A stretch of 64,000 nt of DNA from an uncultured Lachnospiraceae bacterium (GTDB taxonomy: Bacteria > Bacillota > Clostridia > Lachnospirales > Lachnospiraceae). Under the pieces are notes generated by a model. That model did not search any database. It was not told where the DNA came from and saw nothing but the letters and a program-made list of their open reading frames with translations. A program made the position numbers and the translations under genes. Positions 22,838-46,881 of this stretch are shown piece after piece. How positions within the stretch are numbered: position 1 is the first letter of the stretch; every line of letters begins with the position of its first letter. The stretch is from the NCBI GenBank assembly GCA_944380065.1, contig CALWGM010000105.1, positions 19,628 through 83,627 on the forward strand. The letters run 5' to 3'.

Positions 22838-22849
22838 TCTCTTTGTTGC

Positions 22850-22921
22850 GGTTCGTTGGTCAAGCGGTTAAGACGCCGCCCTCTCACGGCGGAAACAGGG
22901 GTTCGATTCCCCTACGAACTG
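22850..22921 (+). tRNA. tRNA-Glu (anticodon CTC), copy 1
   Basis: The cloverleaf is complete: acceptor GGTTCGT / ACGAACT (G1-U72 wobble), 3-bp D stem GTC/GAC, anticodon stem CCGCC/GGCGG with loop CTCTCAC giving anticodon CTC, T arm AGGGG-TTCGATT-CCCCT, discriminator G. It is 72 nt and CCA is not encoded. It reads GAG codons. A second identical copy starts 104 bp downstream. Confidence 0.93.
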
Positions 22922-22953
22922 TTCGCTTGAAAAAGCGGTTCACAAATAAATAT

Positions 22954-23025
22954 GGTTCGTTGGTCAAGCGGTTAAGACGCCGCCCTCTCACGGCGGAAAC
23001 AGGGGTTCGATTCCCCTACGAACTG
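22954..23025 (+). tRNA. tRNA-Glu (anticodon CTC), copy 2
   Basis: Base-for-base identical to the copy at 22850, with a different 32-bp spacer. No separate promoter is visible between them, so both are probably processed from one transcript. A T-rich run (TTCTGTTTTTTTATA) follows directly and may help end transcription. Confidence 0.93.
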
Positions 23026-23059
23026 TTCTGTTTTTTTATAAAACAGCCCAACCCCAAAG

Positions 23060-29497: not shown

Positions 29498-29731
29498 ATG
29501 TTAGAGAAAATGAGAGAAATGATCGCAGAGCAGCTTGACGTTGAGGCGGAGGACATTACCATGGAGACCCGTTTCAAAGAGGACCTGGAGGCAGATTCCC
29601 TGGATCTTTTTGAACTGGTAAGCTCTCTTGAGGATGAGTATGGTATCGACATCCCGTCCGAGGATCTGGACAGCCTGACCACTGTTGGTGCGATTGTTGA
29701 TTACCTGAAAGAGCTTGGCGTAGAAGAGTAA
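29498..29731 (+). CDS. acpP: Acyl carrier protein
   Basis: A 77-residue acidic four-helix protein carrying acyl chains on a phosphopantetheine arm. The attachment motif ADSLDLFELV places the modified Ser at residue 36. AAAAAGGAG precedes the ATG at 29498. It is the first gene of the operon; its coenzyme A donor is supplied by the pan/coa genes at 59-63.6 kb. Confidence 0.96.
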   Translation: MLEKMREMIAEQLDVEAEDITMETRFKEDLEADSLDLFELVSSLEDEYGIDIPSEDLDSLTTVGAIVDYLKELGVEE

Positions 29732-29745
29732 GATTGGTGGGAAAC

Positions 29746-30669
29746 ATGAAAACGAGAATTACGGAACTTTTTGGAATTGAATACCCGATTATTCAGGGCG
29801 GGATGGCATGGGTGGCAGATTATCATCTGGCGGCAGCCGTTTCCGAGGCCGGCGGCCTGGGGCTGATCGGCGCGGCCAGCGCCCCTGAGGATGTGATTCG
29901 CCAGCAGATCCGTGAGGCGAAAAAACTGACTGATAAGCCTTTTGGCGTCAACGTGATGCTGATGAGCCCCTATGCGGACGAAGTGGCAAAGGTTGTTGTG
30001 GAAGAGGGCGTGAAGGTCGTTACCACAGGCGCCGGGAATCCCGGTAAATATCTGAAAATGTGGCAGGACGCGGGGATCCGCGTTGTGCCGGTTGTTGCCA
30101 GCGTGGCGCTGGCTCGGATGATGGAAAAGGCCGGGGTGGACGCCGTTGTGGCAGAGGGTACGGAGTCCGGCGGACATATCGGTTCCGCAACCACCATGAC
30201 CCTGGTTCCCCAGGTGGTGGACGCTGTCAGTATCCCGGTGATCGCTGCCGGCGGTATCGGCGACGGCAGAGGGATGGCAGCCGCGTTCATGCTGGGCGCT
30301 GAGGCGGTTCAGATGGGTACCCGTTTCTGTGTGGCAGAGGAGTGCATCACCCACCAGAATTATAAAGATAAGATCTTAAAGGCAAAGGATATTGACTCTG
30401 AGGTGACCGGACGTTCCCACGGACATCCGATCCGCTGTCTGCGCAACGCCATGACCAGAGAATATCTGAAGCTGGAAAAGGAAGGCGCACCGTTTGAAGA
30501 GATGGAGAAGCTGACCCTCGGTTCCCTGAGAAACGCCGTGATCGACGGCGATGTGAAGCACGGGACCGTCATGGCAGGACAGATTGCCGGAATGATCAAA
30601 AAACAGCAGACCTGTAAGGAGATCATTGACGAAGTGATGGGGCAGGCAGAGAAGCTGCTGCACCGGTAA
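29746..30669 (+). CDS. fabK: Enoyl-ACP reductase II (FMN-dependent)
   Basis: A 307-residue FMN TIM-barrel enzyme of the nitronate monooxygenase/FabK family that performs the last reduction of each elongation cycle. Signatures: IEYPIIQGGMAWVAD at the N-terminus, EGTESGGHIG near 140, and VIAAGGIGDGRGMAAAFMLG near 168. No FabI or FabL is present. I start at ATG 29746, which has GGTGGGA upstream, rather than at TTG 29734. It belongs to the operon acpP-fabK-fabD-fabG-fabF. Confidence 0.94.
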   Translation: MKTRITELFGIEYPIIQGGMAWVADYHLAAAVSEAGGLGLIGAASAPEDVIRQQIREAKKLTDKPFGVNVMLMSPYADEVAKVVVEEGVKVVTTGAGNPGKYLKMWQDAGIRVVPVVASVALARMMEKAGVDAVVAEGTESGGHIGSATTMTLVPQVVDAVSIPVIAAGGIGDGRGMAAAFMLGAEAVQMGTRFCVAEECITHQNYKDKILKAKDIDSEVTGRSHGHPIRCLRNAMTREYLKLEKEGAPFEEMEKLTLGSLRNAVIDGDVKHGTVMAGQIAGMIKKQQTCKEIIDEVMGQAEKLLHR

Positions 30670-30693
30670 AACGAGGACAAGGAGAGTTATAGT

Positions 30694-31617
30694 ATGAAAA
30701 AAACAGCGTTTATTTTTCCCGGTCAGGGGTCGCAGTACGTTGGCATGGGAAAAGATTTTTATGAAAACTTTACCTGCGCGAAAGAGATGATCGATCTTGC
30801 CGAGAAAGTAAGCGGTATGGATATGAAAGCTCTTCTTTTCGAGGAAAATGAAAATTTAAACATTACCAAATACACGCAGATTGCCATGCTCGCGGATGAG
30901 CTTGCCATTCTGCGTGTGCTTGAGGAAAAAGGCTTCCATTCCGATGTGAACGCGGGCTTAAGCCTGGGCGAGTATGCGGCCCTGGTGGCGTCCGGCGTCA
31001 TGACACCGGAAGATGCTTTCGCGGTGATTGTAAAGCGCGGGGAATATATGCAGGAGGCAGTTCCCACCGGCGGGGCGATGACGGCTGTTATCGGCCTGGA
31101 CAACGGGACGATTGAGAGAGTCTGTTCCGAGACCGAAGGGATCGTTTCCGTGGCAAATTACAATTGTCCCGGGCAGACCGTGATCACCGGTGAGGAGCAT
31201 GCGGTCAACGCGGCTGCCGCGGCCCTGAAGGAAGCCGGCGCAAAGCGCTGCATGGCCCTGAAGGTCAGCGGACCTTTCCATTCCGCGATGCTTGAGGAGG
31301 CCGGCGAGAAGCTGGCAAAGGAATTAGAGCATGTAACGATCCATGATATTGCCACTCCCTACATAACGAATGTGACTGCAGATTATGTGACAGATAAGAG
31401 CCAGGTCAAAGAGCTGCTGAAACAGCAGATTTCCTCTTCTGTACGCTGGCAGCAGAGTGTGGAGCGCATGATTGCGGACGGAGTGGAAGTTTTTATTGAA
31501 ATCGGACCCAAGAAATCCCTGACAGGATTTTTAAAGAAGATAGATAAGTCCATTCCCGCCTACCATGTGGATACCATGGCGGATCTGGACGCTTTGTGCG
31601 AGGCTTTCCGGCAGTAA
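30694..31617 (+). CDS. fabD: Malonyl-CoA:ACP transacylase
   Basis: A 307-residue acyltransferase moving malonyl from CoA to ACP. The N-terminal FIFPGQGSQYVGMGKDFY, the nucleophile motif GLSLGEY (Ser near residue 90) and the VSGPFHSAMLEEAG histidine block near 190 are present. AAGGAGAG precedes the ATG. It uses the malonyl-CoA made by the acc genes downstream in the same operon. Confidence 0.95.
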   Translation: MKKTAFIFPGQGSQYVGMGKDFYENFTCAKEMIDLAEKVSGMDMKALLFEENENLNITKYTQIAMLADELAILRVLEEKGFHSDVNAGLSLGEYAALVASGVMTPEDAFAVIVKRGEYMQEAVPTGGAMTAVIGLDNGTIERVCSETEGIVSVANYNCPGQTVITGEEHAVNAAAAALKEAGAKRCMALKVSGPFHSAMLEEAGEKLAKELEHVTIHDIATPYITNVTADYVTDKSQVKELLKQQISSSVRWQQSVERMIADGVEVFIEIGPKKSLTGFLKKIDKSIPAYHVDTMADLDALCEAFRQ

Positions 31618-31668
31618 TGCGGAAAGCCCGGAATCTATATAACAGAAATTGGTAAACAGGAGGTAAAT

Positions 31669-32418
31669 ATGGGCAATTTACTGGAAAACAAAATTGCGCT
31701 TGTGACCGGCGCCAGCCGGGGGATCGGCAGACAGATCGCGCTGACATTAGCTGCCGAGGGCGCATATGTGGTAGTGAATTATAATGGTTCCGCAGACGCG
31801 GCCAACGCGGTTGTGGAGGAAATGAAGGCAAACGGAGGAAACGGTGAGGTTTATCAGTGTACCGTCAGCGATTTTGCGGCTGTGGAGGAGATGATCAAGA
31901 CATTGGTGAAAAAGCTGGGACGGATCGATATCCTGGTGAACAATGCGGGAATCACCCGGGATGACCTGCTGATGAAGATGAAGGAAGAGGCTTTTGACGC
32001 TGTCATCGCCACAAACCTGAAGGGAAGCTTCAATACCATGCGCCATATCGCGCGCCCGATGCTGAAGCAGAAGGGCGGATGCATCATCAATATTTCATCT
32101 GTCAGCGGCATTATGGGAAATCCCGGACAGATGAATTACTGTGCGTCCAAAGCCGGCGTGATCGGCATGACCAAATCCATGGCCAGGGAGCTGGCCAGCA
32201 GGAATATCCGTGTGAATGCGGTGGCTCCCGGTTTTATTGATACCGAGATGACGCAGGCCATGACAGATTCCGCAAAAGAAGCGGGACTGGCGCAGGTTCC
32301 CCTGGGAAGAATGGGCACGCCGGAGGATATCGCCAATACCGTTGCTTTCCTGGCGTCCGACAGAGCCTCCTATATTACAGGACAGGTGATCTGTGTGGAC
32401 GGCGGGATGGCGATGTAA
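31669..32418 (+). CDS. fabG: 3-oxoacyl-ACP reductase
   Basis: A 249-residue short-chain dehydrogenase. The NADPH site [12 protein letters not shown] is at residues 13-24, NNAGI near 87, the catalytic Ser in NISSVSG near 140 and the Tyr-Lys pair in MNYCASKAG near 153-157. A good AGGAGG lies before the ATG at 31669. It performs the first reduction of the elongation cycle. Confidence 0.95.
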
Positions 32419-32474
32419 AAATATTGCTGTGAACGGAGTGAACCGTAACGGAAAATCAGGAAAAGGAGAGTTTC

Positions 32475-33710
32475 ATGAGACGAGTTGTTGTAACCGGCAT
32501 GGGGGCGATTACACCCATTGGCCTTGGGATCGAAGAATACTGGAACGGGATCAGAGAGGGAAAGACCGGTTTCGGGGAGATTACCTACTTTGATACCACA
32601 GATTATAAAGTAAAGGTTGCCGCGGAGGTCAAGGGCTTCAAAGCGGCCGACTATATGGATAAGAAAACCGCGAGACGGATGGAATCCTTCTCACAGTATG
32701 CGGTGGCGGCTGCAAAGGAAGCGATGGAGATGTCCGGGATCGATATGGGACAGGAAGACCCCTACCGTGTGGGTATCTGTGTGGGCTCCGGTGTCGGTTC
32801 CCTGCAGGCGATTGAAAGAGAATATGAGAAGCTGCTGAACAAGGGGCCCGCAAGGGTCAATCCGCTTCTGGTACCGTTGATGATCACCAATATGGCGGCG
32901 GGAAATATCGCCATCCAGATGGGCATCAAGGGAAAGAGCATCAATATTGCCACAGCCTGCGCAACCGGCACCCATAACATTGGCGAGGCGTTCCGCGCGA
33001 TCCAGTATGGAGAGTGCGATGTGATGCTGGCAGGCGGCACGGAAAACGCCATCACACCCATCAGTGTGGCAGGTTTCACGGCGCTGACAGCCCTGTCCAC
33101 CTCCAATGATCCTGAGAGATGCTCGATTCCGTTTGACAAAGACCGCGACGGTTTCGTGATCGGCGACGGCGCAGGCATTGTTGTTTTAGAGGAGCTGGAA
33201 CATGCAAAGGCCAGGGGCGCAAAGATCCTGGCGGAAGTGGTGGGATACGGCGCTACCAGCGACGCTTACCACATTACCTCCCCGGCGGAGGATGGCGAGG
33301 GCGCGGCTCACGCCATGGAGTTTGCGCTGAAGGATGCAGGGGTTGCCCCGGAGGAGATCACCTACATCAATGCACACGGAACCAGCACCCATCACAATGA
33401 CCTTTTCGAGACACGCGCTGTCAAGAAAACGTTCGGGGAGCATGCTTACCATCTGAAGATGAATTCTACCAAATCTATGGTTGGCCATCTGCTGGGTGCG
33501 GCAGGCGCCGTAGAATTTATCGCCTGCGTACTGCAGATGAACAACAGTTACATCCATCAGACTGTGGGGCTGGAGCAGCCGGATGAGGAACTGGATCTGG
33601 ATTATGTTCAGGGACATGGCGTGGAGGAGGAGATGGAATACGCATTATCCAATTCTCTTGCCTTCGGCGGGCATAACGCCAGCATCCTGATCAAAAAGTA
33701 TCATGAGTAA
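32475..33710 (+). CDS. fabF: 3-oxoacyl-ACP synthase II
   Basis: A 411-residue thiolase-fold condensing enzyme. The catalytic Cys lies in NIATACATGTHNIG (near residue 163), and the His residues lie in NAHGTSTHHND (near 302) and GHLLGAAGAVE (near 339). AAAGGAGAG precedes the ATG. It elongates acyl-ACP; initiation would need FabH, which is not in this operon or window. Confidence 0.95.
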   Translation: MRRVVVTGMGAITPIGLGIEEYWNGIREGKTGFGEITYFDTTDYKVKVAAEVKGFKAADYMDKKTARRMESFSQYAVAAAKEAMEMSGIDMGQEDPYRVGICVGSGVGSLQAIEREYEKLLNKGPARVNPLLVPLMITNMAAGNIAIQMGIKGKSINIATACATGTHNIGEAFRAIQYGECDVMLAGGTENAITPISVAGFTALTALSTSNDPERCSIPFDKDRDGFVIGDGAGIVVLEELEHAKARGAKILAEVVGYGATSDAYHITSPAEDGEGAAHAMEFALKDAGVAPEEITYINAHGTSTHHNDLFETRAVKKTFGEHAYHLKMNSTKSMVGHLLGAAGAVEFIACVLQMNNSYIHQTVGLEQPDEELDLDYVQGHGVEEEMEYALSNSLAFGGHNASILIKKYHE

Positions 33711-33724
33711 AAGAAAAACAAAAA

Positions 33725-33745
33725 GCAGCCGCGGACAGCGGCTGC
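33725..33745 (+). other. Hairpin between fabF and accB
   Basis: GCAGCCGC / GCGGCTGC form an 8-bp GC stem with loop GGACA and no T-tract on the + strand. It is probably an internal mRNA structure separating the fab and acc halves of the operon. Confidence 0.45.
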
Positions 33746-33787
33746 AATGATCAACAGGTGATCGCGGATCACAGATAGGAGTCAGTC

Positions 33788-34279
33788 ATGGAAGTCAGTC
33801 AGATCATAGAATTGATGAAGGCCGTTGCAGATAACGGCCTGACCGATTTCTCCTACGAGGAGAACGGTATGGTTTTAAAGATCCGGAAGCATCCGGAGAA
33901 AAAGGAAGTTATTTGCCAGTCTGTTGCAGCGCCGGCCGTGATGGCACAGCAGCCTGCCCCGCAGCCTCTGACAGCAGTGGTTCCGCCTGTACAGGCAGCC
34001 GCTGTCCAGGCAGATGACAGCGCAGCGCAGGCAGAAGAGCTTTCCGGCCAGGTTGTGAAATGTCCGCTGGTGGGAACCTTCTACGCGGCGTCTTCGCCGG
34101 ATGCGGATCCTTTTGTCCAGGTAGGGGACATTGTGAAAAAAGGCCAGGTACTCGGAATTGTGGAGGCGATGAAGCTGATGAACGAGATCGAGTCTGAGTT
34201 TGACGGCGTCGTGAAGCAGATCCTGGTAAAGAACGGGGATCAGGTTGAATATGACCAGCCCCTGTTTGTGATCGAGTAA
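33788..34279 (+). CDS. accB: Biotin carboxyl carrier protein of acetyl-CoA carboxylase
   Basis: A 163-residue carrier. The N-terminal helical region is followed by an Ala/Pro/Gln-rich flexible linker (about 48-88) and a C-terminal biotinyl domain with EAMKLM, the biotinylated Lys being residue 129. It is the carrier between AccC and the AccD/AccA transferase encoded downstream. Confidence 0.95.
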   Translation: MEVSQIIELMKAVADNGLTDFSYEENGMVLKIRKHPEKKEVICQSVAAPAVMAQQPAPQPLTAVVPPVQAAAVQADDSAAQAEELSGQVVKCPLVGTFYAASSPDADPFVQVGDIVKKGQVLGIVEAMKLMNEIESEFDGVVKQILVKNGDQVEYDQPLFVIE

Positions 34280-34297
34280 AAGGAAAGGAAGGATCCC

Positions 34298-34726
34298 ATG
34301 TCTGTATTAACAACAAAGGAAATTATGGATATCATTCCCCACCGTCAGCCGATGCTTCTGATTGACACGATTGAGGAGCTGGAGCCCGGCGTCCGTGCAG
34401 TGGGAAAGAAATGTGTTTCTTACAATGAGCCTTATTTTGCAGGCCATTTTCCGGGAGAGCCGGTGATGCCCGGCGTCCTGATCGTGGAAGCCCTGGCGCA
34501 GGTCGGCGCGGTAGCGATCCTTTCCTGTGAGGAGTTTAAGGGAAAGACCGCCTATTTCGGCGCCATCAACTCCGCCAAATTCAAAAAGAAAGTTGTCCCG
34601 GGGGACGTCCTGATCTTAGAGACGGAGATGATCAAGCAGAAAGGACCCATCGGCATTGCGAAGGCGAAGGCAACCGTGGACGGAAAGACGGCTGTTGCGG
34701 CAGAGCTTACATTTGCAATTGGCTAA
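34298..34726 (+). CDS. fabZ: 3-hydroxyacyl-ACP dehydratase
   Basis: A 142-residue hotdog-fold dehydratase. The catalytic His is in YFAGHFPGEPVMPGVLIVEA (near residue 50), with the conserved Glu in that last helix. AAGGAAGGA precedes the ATG. It lies between accB and accC, a common Clostridia arrangement. Confidence 0.95.
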   Translation: MSVLTTKEIMDIIPHRQPMLLIDTIEELEPGVRAVGKKCVSYNEPYFAGHFPGEPVMPGVLIVEALAQVGAVAILSCEEFKGKTAYFGAINSAKFKKKVVPGDVLILETEMIKQKGPIGIAKAKATVDGKTAVAAELTFAIG

Positions 34727-34742
34727 GGAAGGTGTTTCAGAT

Positions 34743-36083
34743 ATGTTTCAAAAAATTTTGATTGCCAACAGGGGAGAGATCGCCGTGCGTATCATCCGGG
34801 CTTGCCGGGAGCTGGGCATTACCTCTGTTGCAGTATATTCTACCGCGGACAGGGAAGCGCTTCACACCATGTTAGCGGACGAGGCGATCTGCATCGGCGG
34901 CCCGGCTCCGGCAGACAGTTACCTGAACATGGAGCGTATTTTAAGCGCAGCCAGCGTCTCCAAGGCGGACGCTATCCATCCGGGGTTTGGTTTCCTGTCG
35001 GAAAACGCCAAATTTGCCCAGATGTGCAAGGAGTGCAACATTGTCTTTATCGGACCGGACGCGGAGGTTATTTCCAAAATGGGAAATAAGCAGGAAGCCA
35101 GAAATACGATGATGGCGGCCAAAGTTCCGGTTGTCCCCGGTACCAAGGAGGCGGTGTTTTCCGCAGAGCGGGGGCTGGAACTGGCAAAGGAGATCGGTTT
35201 CCCTGTTATGATCAAGGCGGCCAGCGGCGGCGGCGGAAAGGGAATGCGTATTTCCCGTTCCGAGGCAGATTTTGTGGAGAATTTTGAGGTTGCCCAGACA
35301 GAATCTGTCAATGGTTTTGGCGACAATACCATGTATATCGAAAAGTATATTGAGCGTCCCCGCCACATCGAGTTTCAGATTCTGGCGGATAAATACGGGA
35401 ACGTAGTTTCCCTGGGGGAGCGTGACTGCTCCATCCAGAGGCGTCATCAGAAGATGGTGGAGGAGTCTCCGTCCGTGGCGCTGGATGCGAAACTGCGCAA
35501 AGAGATGGGCGAGGTTGCCGTGCGGGCGGCGAAAGCGGCTCATTACGAGAGCGCCGGAACCATCGAATTCCTGCTGGATAAAGATAAAAAATATTATTTC
35601 ATGGAGATGAATACCAGGATTCAGGTAGAGCATGGGGTGACGGAGTTAGTGACTGGAATTGACCTGATCAAAGAGCAGATCTTTATCGCGGCCGGTGAAA
35701 AGCTCCGTTTCAAACAGAAGGATATCCAGATCCAGGGGCATGCGATCGAGTGCCGGCTGAATGCCGAGAATCCGGAGAAAAACTTTATGCCCTGTCCAGG
35801 GAAGATTGAGTTCCTCCATCTGCCCGGCGGAAACGGCGTGCGGATTGATTCTGCGATTTACGCAGGGTACCAGATCCCGCCCAACTACGATTCTATGATT
35901 GCCAAGATCATGGTGTATGGAAAAGACCGGGATACGGCGATTGATAAAATGCGCAGCGCCCTCGGTGAAGTCAACGTGGAAGGGATCATCACAAATCTGG
36001 ATTATCAGTATGAGATCATCAACCACCCGGTTTTCCGTTCCGGGGATGTGACAACAGGATTCTTAGAGGAATATTTCAAATAA
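34743..36083 (+). CDS. accC: Biotin carboxylase subunit of acetyl-CoA carboxylase
   Basis: A 446-residue ATP-grasp enzyme carboxylating the biotin on AccB. The N-terminus MFQKILIANRGEIAVRIIRA, the glycine loop AASGGGGKGMRIS near 160 and FLDK..YYFMEMNTRIQVEH near 280 are typical. I start at ATG 34743, which has AAGGAAGG upstream and matches the family N-terminus; the frame is open further upstream inside fabZ. The ORF is full length. Confidence 0.95.
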   Translation: MFQKILIANRGEIAVRIIRACRELGITSVAVYSTADREALHTMLADEAICIGGPAPADSYLNMERILSAASVSKADAIHPGFGFLSENAKFAQMCKECNIVFIGPDAEVISKMGNKQEARNTMMAAKVPVVPGTKEAVFSAERGLELAKEIGFPVMIKAASGGGGKGMRISRSEADFVENFEVAQTESVNGFGDNTMYIEKYIERPRHIEFQILADKYGNVVSLGERDCSIQRRHQKMVEESPSVALDAKLRKEMGEVAVRAAKAAHYESAGTIEFLLDKDKKYYFMEMNTRIQVEHGVTELVTGIDLIKEQIFIAAGEKLRFKQKDIQIQGHAIECRLNAENPEKNFMPCPGKIEFLHLPGGNGVRIDSAIYAGYQIPPNYDSMIAKIMVYGKDRDTAIDKMRSALGEVNVEGIITNLDYQYEIINHPVFRSGDVTTGFLEEYFK

Positions 36084-36173
36084 AAGCGCTGGAAACGTTC
36101 CGTACTCCCCGGATCATGGCGGGAGACAGAGGCTGTTGCCGGCCTGAATAAAAGAAAGAGCAGGTGATATCAG

Positions 36174-36572
36174 ATGTTGAAATTTAAAAAGCTGAATTAT
36201 ATTACCGTTCCGCGGAAAGAGAACGATATCCCCGAGGGAATGTGGATCAAATGTGATGCCTGCGGAGAGATGCTCTACAAAGAAGACGTCATCCACAATC
36301 ATTTGGTCTGTTACAAGTGTGGGAAGTATTTCCGGCTGTATACCAAGCGGCGTCTCCATCTGGTTGCAGACAAACATACGTTTGAGCCCTGGGACGAAGG
36401 GCTGGAAGGAAAGGATCCGCTGCAGTATCCCGGTTATCCTGAAAAGATTGCGGCGCTGAAAGAGAGGCTGAAAATTGATGAGGCAGTGACCACCGGGCGC
36501 TGTAAAATTCATGGCGAGGATACAGTCATTGCTATCTGCGATTCCCGCTTCCTGATGGGAAGCATGGGATAG
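36174..36572 (+). CDS. accD: AccD N-terminal segment ending at an in-frame TAG
   Basis: 132 codons encoding the start of the carboxyltransferase beta subunit: a zinc ribbon (CDACG near residue 26 and CYKCG near 45) and the first part of the crotonase-like fold. It ends DSRFLMGSMG then TAG at 36570-36572. In intact AccD this sequence continues [14 protein letters not shown]; here the Ser codon is TAG (one base from TCG) and the downstream codons GTA GTG GGT GAG AAG continue the expected V-V-G-E-K in the same frame. Normal AccD cannot fold from this piece alone. Explanations are a nonsense mutation, suppression or read-through, reinitiation at GTG 36576, or a sequence error. Confidence 0.85.
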   Translation: MLKFKKLNYITVPRKENDIPEGMWIKCDACGEMLYKEDVIHNHLVCYKCGKYFRLYTKRRLHLVADKHTFEPWDEGLEGKDPLQYPGYPEKIAALKERLKIDEAVTTGRCKIHGEDTVIAICDSRFLMGSMG

Positions 36573-36575
36573 GTA

Positions 36576-37853
36576 GTGGGTGAGAAGATCACAAGAGCGG
36601 TGGAACGTGCCACAGAGCTGAAGCTGCCGATCATCATTTTTACCTGCTCCGGCGGCGCCAGGATGCAGGAGGGAATGATTTCCCTGATGCAGATGGCCAA
36701 AACTTCAGCTGCGCTGAAACGCCACTCAGATGCCGGTCTACTGTATATTACCGTGCTGACAGACCCGACCACCGGGGGCGTGACCGCCAGCTTTGCCATG
36801 CTGGGAGACATTATTTTAGCTGAGCCTGGGGCGCTGGTTGGTTTTGCGGGCCCGCGGGTGATCGAGCAGACCATCGGCCAGAAGCTTCCGGAAGGTTTCC
36901 AGAGAGCAGAATTCTTAGTGGAGCACGGGCTGATCGACGGAATCATCCGCCGGGAGGACATGAAGGATACCCTGGCGAAACTGCTTCACATGCACAAGAT
37001 GCCCACAAGGGAAGAGGGACTGATCACAAACAAGCTGCAGGTGCCGCTGGTAACCCATGCGGAGAACCATCTGCCCACAGCCTGGGAGCGGGTACAGACG
37101 GCCAGATCTTCGGAGCGTCTGACAGCCCTGGATTATATTACAGAAATTTTCTCTGATTTTGAGGAGATGCATGGCGACCGCCACGATGCCGACGACGGCT
37201 CGACGGTGGGCGGTATTGCGTACCTGGACGGCTGCCCGGTGACTGTCATCGGCCAGCAGAAGGGACGCACTACCAAGGAAAACATTATCCGTAATTTCGG
37301 TATGCCGTCTCCGGAAGGATACCGTAAGGCTCTGCGCCTGATGAAGCAGGCGGAGAAGTTCCATCGCCCGATTATCAACTTTATCGACACGCCGGGCGCT
37401 TTCCCCGGCATGGAGGCTGAGGAGCACGGACAGGGAGAGGCCATTGCCCGCAATCTTTACGAAATGTCCGCACTGAAAACGCCGGTGCTCAGCATTGTGA
37501 TCGGCGAGGGCGGCAGCGGCGGCGCACTGGCGCTGGCAGTTGCCAATGAGGTGTGGATGATGGAGAACGCCACCTATACCATTCTTTCCCCGGAAGGTTT
37601 TGCTTCCATCCTGTGGAAAGACGGGAAACGGGCCAGCGAAGCGGCAGGCATTATGAAGGTGACGGCTGAGGAGCTGAAGGAGCTGGGCATTATTGAGAAA
37701 GTAGTTCCCGAGAAGACCCCGGCCTGCAGTGAGAACCGTCTGGAGATCTGCCGGATTATGAGGAAAATGATCCGCAACTTCGTGTATGACAATTTAGAGA
37801 GGGATCCGGAGGAGCTGGTAAAAGAGCGATATGAGCGGTTCCGGGCATTCTGA
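36576..37853 (+). CDS. accA: AccD C-terminal part fused to AccA (carboxyltransferase)
   Basis: 425 residues in the same frame as the upstream accD segment. Residues 1 to about 150 complete AccD ([52 protein letters not shown]). After a short linker the rest is AccA, the alpha subunit ([57 protein letters not shown]). So the locus is a single fused beta-alpha carboxyltransferase, about 559 codons from 36174, interrupted by one TAG. If this part is made separately, GTG at 36576, three bases after the stop, is the nearest start; the local ribosome site is poor. It is the last gene of the fab/acc operon. Confidence 0.9.
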
Positions 37854-37860
37854 TAAAAGG

Positions 37861-37892
37861 AAAAGAATCCTGCGCAGGCGGGATTCTTTTTT
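37861..37892 (+). terminator. Terminator of the fab/acc operon
   Basis: AAAAGAATCC / GGATTCTTTT with a small internal hairpin, followed by seven T. A clear intrinsic terminator a few bases after the accDA stop. Confidence 0.85.
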
Positions 37893-37940
37893 TGAGTGAT
37901 GGGGCAGACGGCGGGGAGCATTTCTTTTTGCCGGAAGTTC

Positions 37941-37969
37941 TTGTATTCAAACGCGGAAAAGGGTATAGT
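37941..37969 (+). promoter_or_regulatory. Promoter upstream of the TraX-like gene
   Basis: TTGTAT (37941-37946), 17 bp, TATAGT (37964-37969), following directly after the operon terminator. Confidence 0.65.
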
Positions 37970-38005
37970 TATGGATGAGCTGATTGATAAAGGAGAAGAA
38001 TGCCC

Positions 38006-46823: not shown

Positions 46824-46881
46824 CATGCGCGGACTAACCGGTATGGTGCCTTCGGGTGAGCCGGCGGGTGAGATGCGCATG
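46824..46881 (+). ncRNA. Structured leader of rpsB (candidate S2 autoregulatory element)
   Basis: CATGCGC (46824-46830) pairs with GCGCATG (46875-46881), enclosing CCGG/CCGG and a small C-TTCG-G hairpin. It sits about 30 bases before the rpsB ATG in a roughly 140-nt leader, the position of r-protein leaders. The family assignment is a guess. Confidence 0.45.

Follow-up and report, generated by a model that had tools for sequence, protein, structure and literature searches.

The fused accD-accA gene (accDA) of a Lachnospiraceae bacterium raises the question of whether an amber codon within its reading frame is a stop, a codon that is read through, or a wrong base. The gene lies in the 64,000-nucleotide stretch of DNA that was analysed here (the window), and it occupies one frame of the plus strand from 36174 to 37853, with 559 codons followed by TGA. 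It encodes an AccD-AccA fusion in which codon 133, at 36570-36572, is TAG, the one stop inside the frame. The continuous frame and the intact codons on both sides of the TAG, as described in the initial annotation, were confirmed from the sequence.

The accD-accA frame, its operon and gene copies

All three domains of an AccD-AccA fusion lie in this one frame, which is interrupted only at 36570-36572. The 132 codons 5' of the stop (36174..36569, plus strand) encode the N-terminal part of AccD, comprising the zinc ribbon (PF17848, Zn_ribbon_ACC, E 1.9e-9) and the start of the carboxyltransferase domain, and the gene start has a predicted Shine-Dalgarno duplex of -8.7 kcal/mol. The same frame continues 3' of the stop (36573..37853, plus strand) for 426 codons, encoding the remainder of AccD and the whole of AccA before it ends at TGA, and it aligns with relatives over its length. 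Pfam searches of 36576-37850 recovered most of the Carboxyl_trans domain (PF01039, E 2.9e-33) and ACCA (PF03255, E 4.3e-114). Such an open length, with this alignment, is more than chance would give.

accDA is the last gene of a fatty-acid-synthesis (FASII) operon. Its neighbours acpP, fabK-like, fabD, fabG, fabF, accB, fabZ and accC (29498..36083, plus strand), the names of which were assigned by recognition, are all open. Seven of these eight align to the closest relative, G018, and are free of internal stops; acpP is too short for the test. The alignment of fabF includes two stops, both 5' of the fabF start. Other plus-frame stops in the comparison with G018, taken as a group, fall mostly before or between genes, and one, at 46835, is 28 codons into its alignment. 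The assembly of G018 itself breaks within accDA (end of L151, start of L152), with about 17 residues in common between the two contig ends. A scan of 36000-38000 gave one promoter-like site, against 1.7 expected, and no terminator-like site. Elsewhere in the window, a tandem pair of tRNA-Glu (CTC) genes occupies 22849-23026.

The source genome is a draft, presumably assembled from a metagenome, of 2.69 Mb in 160 contigs; it is 95.68% complete, and the contig that contains the window is 83.6 kb long. We take the organism to be a member of the Lachnospiraceae related to Eubacterium ramulus, because the accDA of a congener (G001) is identical to that of E. ramulus ATCC 29099 at all 559 codons. 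Searches of the draft with PF03255 and PF01039 hit a single locus each, this gene, and turned up no further AccA or AccD domain. The earlier statement that accDA is the only copy in view thus extends to the draft genome, and the suggestion that an intact second gene exists elsewhere is disfavoured.

A search of the genus gave an ACCA match in 17 of 20 genomes, the source genome included. Six congeners (G003, G004, G005, G007, G008 and G010; loci L020-L025) have, in addition to the near copy, a distant AccD-AccA-like copy that is 56-58% identical and has the motif SSMGHNMGEK. This distant copy was not found in the source genome. Congener G015, which is 91% complete, has no ACCA match at all, which means that its acetyl-CoA carboxylase (ACC) has been lost or falls in a gap of the assembly; G011 (79% complete) and G012 (73% complete) likewise have no ACCA match. 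A search of a phage collection gave no match.

Codon 133 in relatives and constraint on the gene

The residue at the position of the TAG was read from an alignment of 109 rows, two of which are the window itself. The 107 non-self rows include duplicates and paralogues, and the part drawn from our collection is the best 80 of 586 loci. With that scope, the residues in the 107 rows are His (51), Tyr (37), Glu (10), Gln (3), Trp (3), Thr (2) and Ala (1), and neither Ser nor a stop occurs in any of them. The nine congeners that were laid out codon by codon all have TAT or TAC (Tyr), as does E. ramulus, which duplicates one of them. Congeners with the distant copy only have His, and G019 has Thr. 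Arg, Ser, Thr and Tyr are found at the site among six further family members that carry in-frame stops, and the Ser is confined to two more distant relatives (L185 and L186). Position 133 is thus variable and tolerates many residues.

These residues change the account of what the TAG replaced. The initial annotation took it to replace the Ser of a conserved motif, which is incorrect, and listed a base error from TCG to TAG among several possibilities without choosing one. A base error, or a recent mutation, does fit best, but the route from TCG is not supported, since the near relatives carry Tyr codons; a Ser-to-stop change was rejected on the same ground. A change from TAT or TAC to TAG needs one base.

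Stops do occur elsewhere in the family, at a different place. In a search of 397 genomes, 290 of which matched, in-frame stops were present in seven of the 150 matches listed, namely the source gene and six others. In five of the six, the stops coincide with the AccD/AccA boundary (query residues 276-301); the sixth (L183) has an insertion at this same boundary, at residue 302, which its alignment skips. One further stop, in L018 of G019, is at residue 293 in the 109-row alignment. None of the 150 family matches listed, and none of the 107 non-self rows (collection part best 80 of 586 loci), has a stop at codon 133 in another genome. The comparison with close relatives, which had been suggested as a check, therefore leaves the stop unique to the source genome among the relatives examined, at a site that is mostly His or Tyr.

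Both parts of the gene are constrained. Relative to G018, dN/dS is 0.007 for the 132 codons before the TAG and 0.011 for the 426 codons after it, and it is 0.017 for accC; dS is saturated in these comparisons, and the values are rough. When missense changes were polarised on other congeners, one before and two after the TAG fell on the source branch and two before and two after on the sister branch, with ten unpolarised. No other lesion was found in accDA or in the operon neighbours that were tested. accDA is conserved before and after the TAG alike, with no sign of decay. An old pseudogene is not supported, as neither relaxed selection nor further lesions were found. The TAG is thus very recent, tolerated, or not real.

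UAG decoding and other stops in the genome

UAG is used as an ordinary terminator in this genome. TAG ends 79 of 479 long open reading frames in the 577 kb surveyed, and release factor RF1 is present and intact, which bears out the earlier view that UAG is not generally reassigned and rules out genome-wide reassignment. A search for a suppressor tRNA, also proposed at the outset, gave a partial answer: none of the 40 tRNAs found, all of whose anticodons could be read, has a CUA anticodon, in a set from which several isotypes (Trp, Asp and Ile among them) were not recovered. Both tRNA-Tyr genes have the anticodon GUA. Pyrrolysine was considered and rejected, since all three genome matches to a pyrrolysyl-synthetase model fall below the cut-off. 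Back-up stops are not enriched after TAG relative to TGA: the next 10 codons contain another in-frame stop for 22 of 79 TAG, 57 of 183 TGA and 40 of 216 TAA codons, the share being lower for TAA.

The RNA 3' of the TAG folds better than most shuffled sequences (z -2.87, with 2 of 200 shuffles as good). Among 11 relatives that were folded, z ranged from -3.3 to +0.5, with one similarly low and the others between -1.3 and +0.5. A distal hairpin that is partly similar recurs in several relatives whose codon 133 is sense, and we therefore do not tie it to the stop. The lack of a stop at codon 133 in any relative seen (0 of the 107 non-self rows, collection part best 80 of 586 loci) and the placement of the family's other stops at the AccD/AccA boundary speak against programmed read-through, one of the explanations first offered.

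Another early proposal was that translation stops at the TAG and restarts at a GTG two codons downstream (36576..36578, plus strand), giving split subunits; the two chains would then reassemble as an active split enzyme. The position of this GTG and the long frame that follows it make the idea worth considering, but it lacks a convincing Shine-Dalgarno sequence. Its duplex is -4.2 kcal/mol and those of nine gene starts range from -6.3 to -11.7, although this measure separates only partly, the background inside the gene having a median of -3.4 and a 5th percentile of -8.3. In addition, other relatives have their stops at the AccD/AccA boundary, whereas this cut would fall within the carboxyltransferase domain. 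Because the Shine-Dalgarno sequence is weak and the cut is inside the domain, we regard restart as highly improbable.

In-frame TAG codons are not widespread in the part of the source genome that was surveyed. A codon-usage scan of 577 kb, a heuristic that can miss cases, picked out 13 stops that have coding signal before and after them. By eye, only two of these are within genes, the TAG in accDA and a TAG at L171:7642-7644 (minus strand; G000:C15), after which the frame runs on for 133 codons. The others have a likely start of the next gene beyond them, or frames that are short and unconvincing. A second scan of 318 kb with other settings, also heuristic, flagged 14 stops that were partly different, and its extra rows appeared by eye to be gene ends or spurious. 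By its appearance the L171 gene resembles nucleases of the Rpn/PD-(D/E)XK family, although neither piece gave a confirming Pfam match, and the PF12784 matches in the genome do not include this place. Two cases of TAG within a gene are too few to infer suppression.

Explanations for the stop and comparison with known systems

We lean towards a single-base consensus error, or a base from a minor strain, as a moderately likely source of the TAG. The consensus of this fragmented draft would have taken up one wrong or minor-variant base, at a position where near relatives encode Tyr, and most living cells would then lack the stop. The absence of the stop from every relative seen, a gene that is otherwise intact and conserved, the lack of any other lesion and the 160-contig state of the draft all favour this reading, and two stops within genes in 577 kb agree with isolated single-base faults at a low rate. 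However, so low a rate fits real recent mutations equally well, the base is well inside an 83.6-kb contig, and both stops are TAG, as random faults would give in about 1/9 of cases were all three stops equally likely. On this reading, accDA is probably an ordinary, working carboxyltransferase fusion of ACC, and probably important to the bacterium. A real and recent nonsense mutation, present as a strain polymorphism, is a tentative second possibility and clearly the less likely of the two. One base change from a Tyr codon would be enough, and at a site where His, Tyr, Glu, Gln, Trp, Thr, Ala, Arg and Ser are all seen, almost any inserted residue should work, so that low-level near-cognate reading of UAG could supply reduced ACC. 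Alternatively, the cell could take up fatty acids. A PlsX-family gene and one gene of the DegV/FakB family in the source genome are consistent with uptake, and Staphylococcus aureus accD deletion strains are described as growing with supplied branched-chain fatty acids (PMC7240157). The expectation that ACC should be essential was thus too strong in principle, and true loss of ACC could be survivable. Yet the same S. aureus strains failed to proliferate in mice (PMC7240157), and the mutation would strike the one ACC carboxyltransferase detected, encoded by the last gene of a FASII operon whose other frames are open, from which we infer that fatty-acid synthesis is in use. Since no relaxation of constraint is seen, such a mutation would have to be very young.

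We think it unlikely that UAG is usefully read through, with a suppressor tRNA or the local context giving an insertion that keeps or tunes ACC. Purifying selection that is alike on both sides of the TAG, the second TAG within a gene at L171, the incomplete tRNA set and the stable fold 3' of the codon could be taken to support it. Against it stand the lack of a CUA anticodon among the 40 tRNAs found, the pyrrolysyl-synthetase matches below cut-off, the intact RF1, the ordinary frequency of back-up stops, the absence of the stop from the relatives seen and the recurrence of the hairpin where the codon is sense. Its most specific form is less probable still: a real amber codon in the only ACC carboxyltransferase gene, read through naturally at a tolerant site, so that the efficiency of termination would set the rate of fatty-acid synthesis. 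Because no relative examined shares the stop, its most likely origin is a fault of sequencing or assembly, or else a recent mutation confined to this genome, rather than a novel way of decoding. A consensus error or minor-strain base thus ranks first, followed by a recent nonsense mutation, then useful read-through and finally restart.

If real, the TAG would be a natural example of a central metabolic gene behind an amber codon, one that could help to measure read-through in gut bacteria. For now the case serves mainly as a caution: a lone stop in a draft genome that none of the relatives seen shares needs a check of the reads before recoding is claimed. A limited literature search found no published report of an amber codon in accDA of this kind, and the main text of a screen for alternative codes (PMC8629427) does not contain 'Lachnospir'.

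Several known systems can be compared with this gene. The fused AccD-AccA of E. ramulus ATCC 29099 (L035) has the same layout, aligns over its full length and is 79% identical to the source gene, but it has a Tyr codon at position 133 where the source gene has TAG. Gut phages that use code 15, in which TAG is read as Gln (PMC9523058), also have in-frame TAG in gut-type DNA. In contrast to these phages, accDA is a bacterial housekeeping gene in a genome where TAG is a normal stop elsewhere and no CUA tRNA was found. Belinky et al. 2021 (PMC7918605) describe in-frame stops as widespread in bacterial genes, with a substantial fraction expected to be artefacts, and the stops retained in their study as mostly short-lived. 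They kept stops common to at least two species to limit artefacts, whereas the accDA stop is in a single genome. Like the stops in that study, accDA has a single stop, has kept purifying selection and carries no sign of age.
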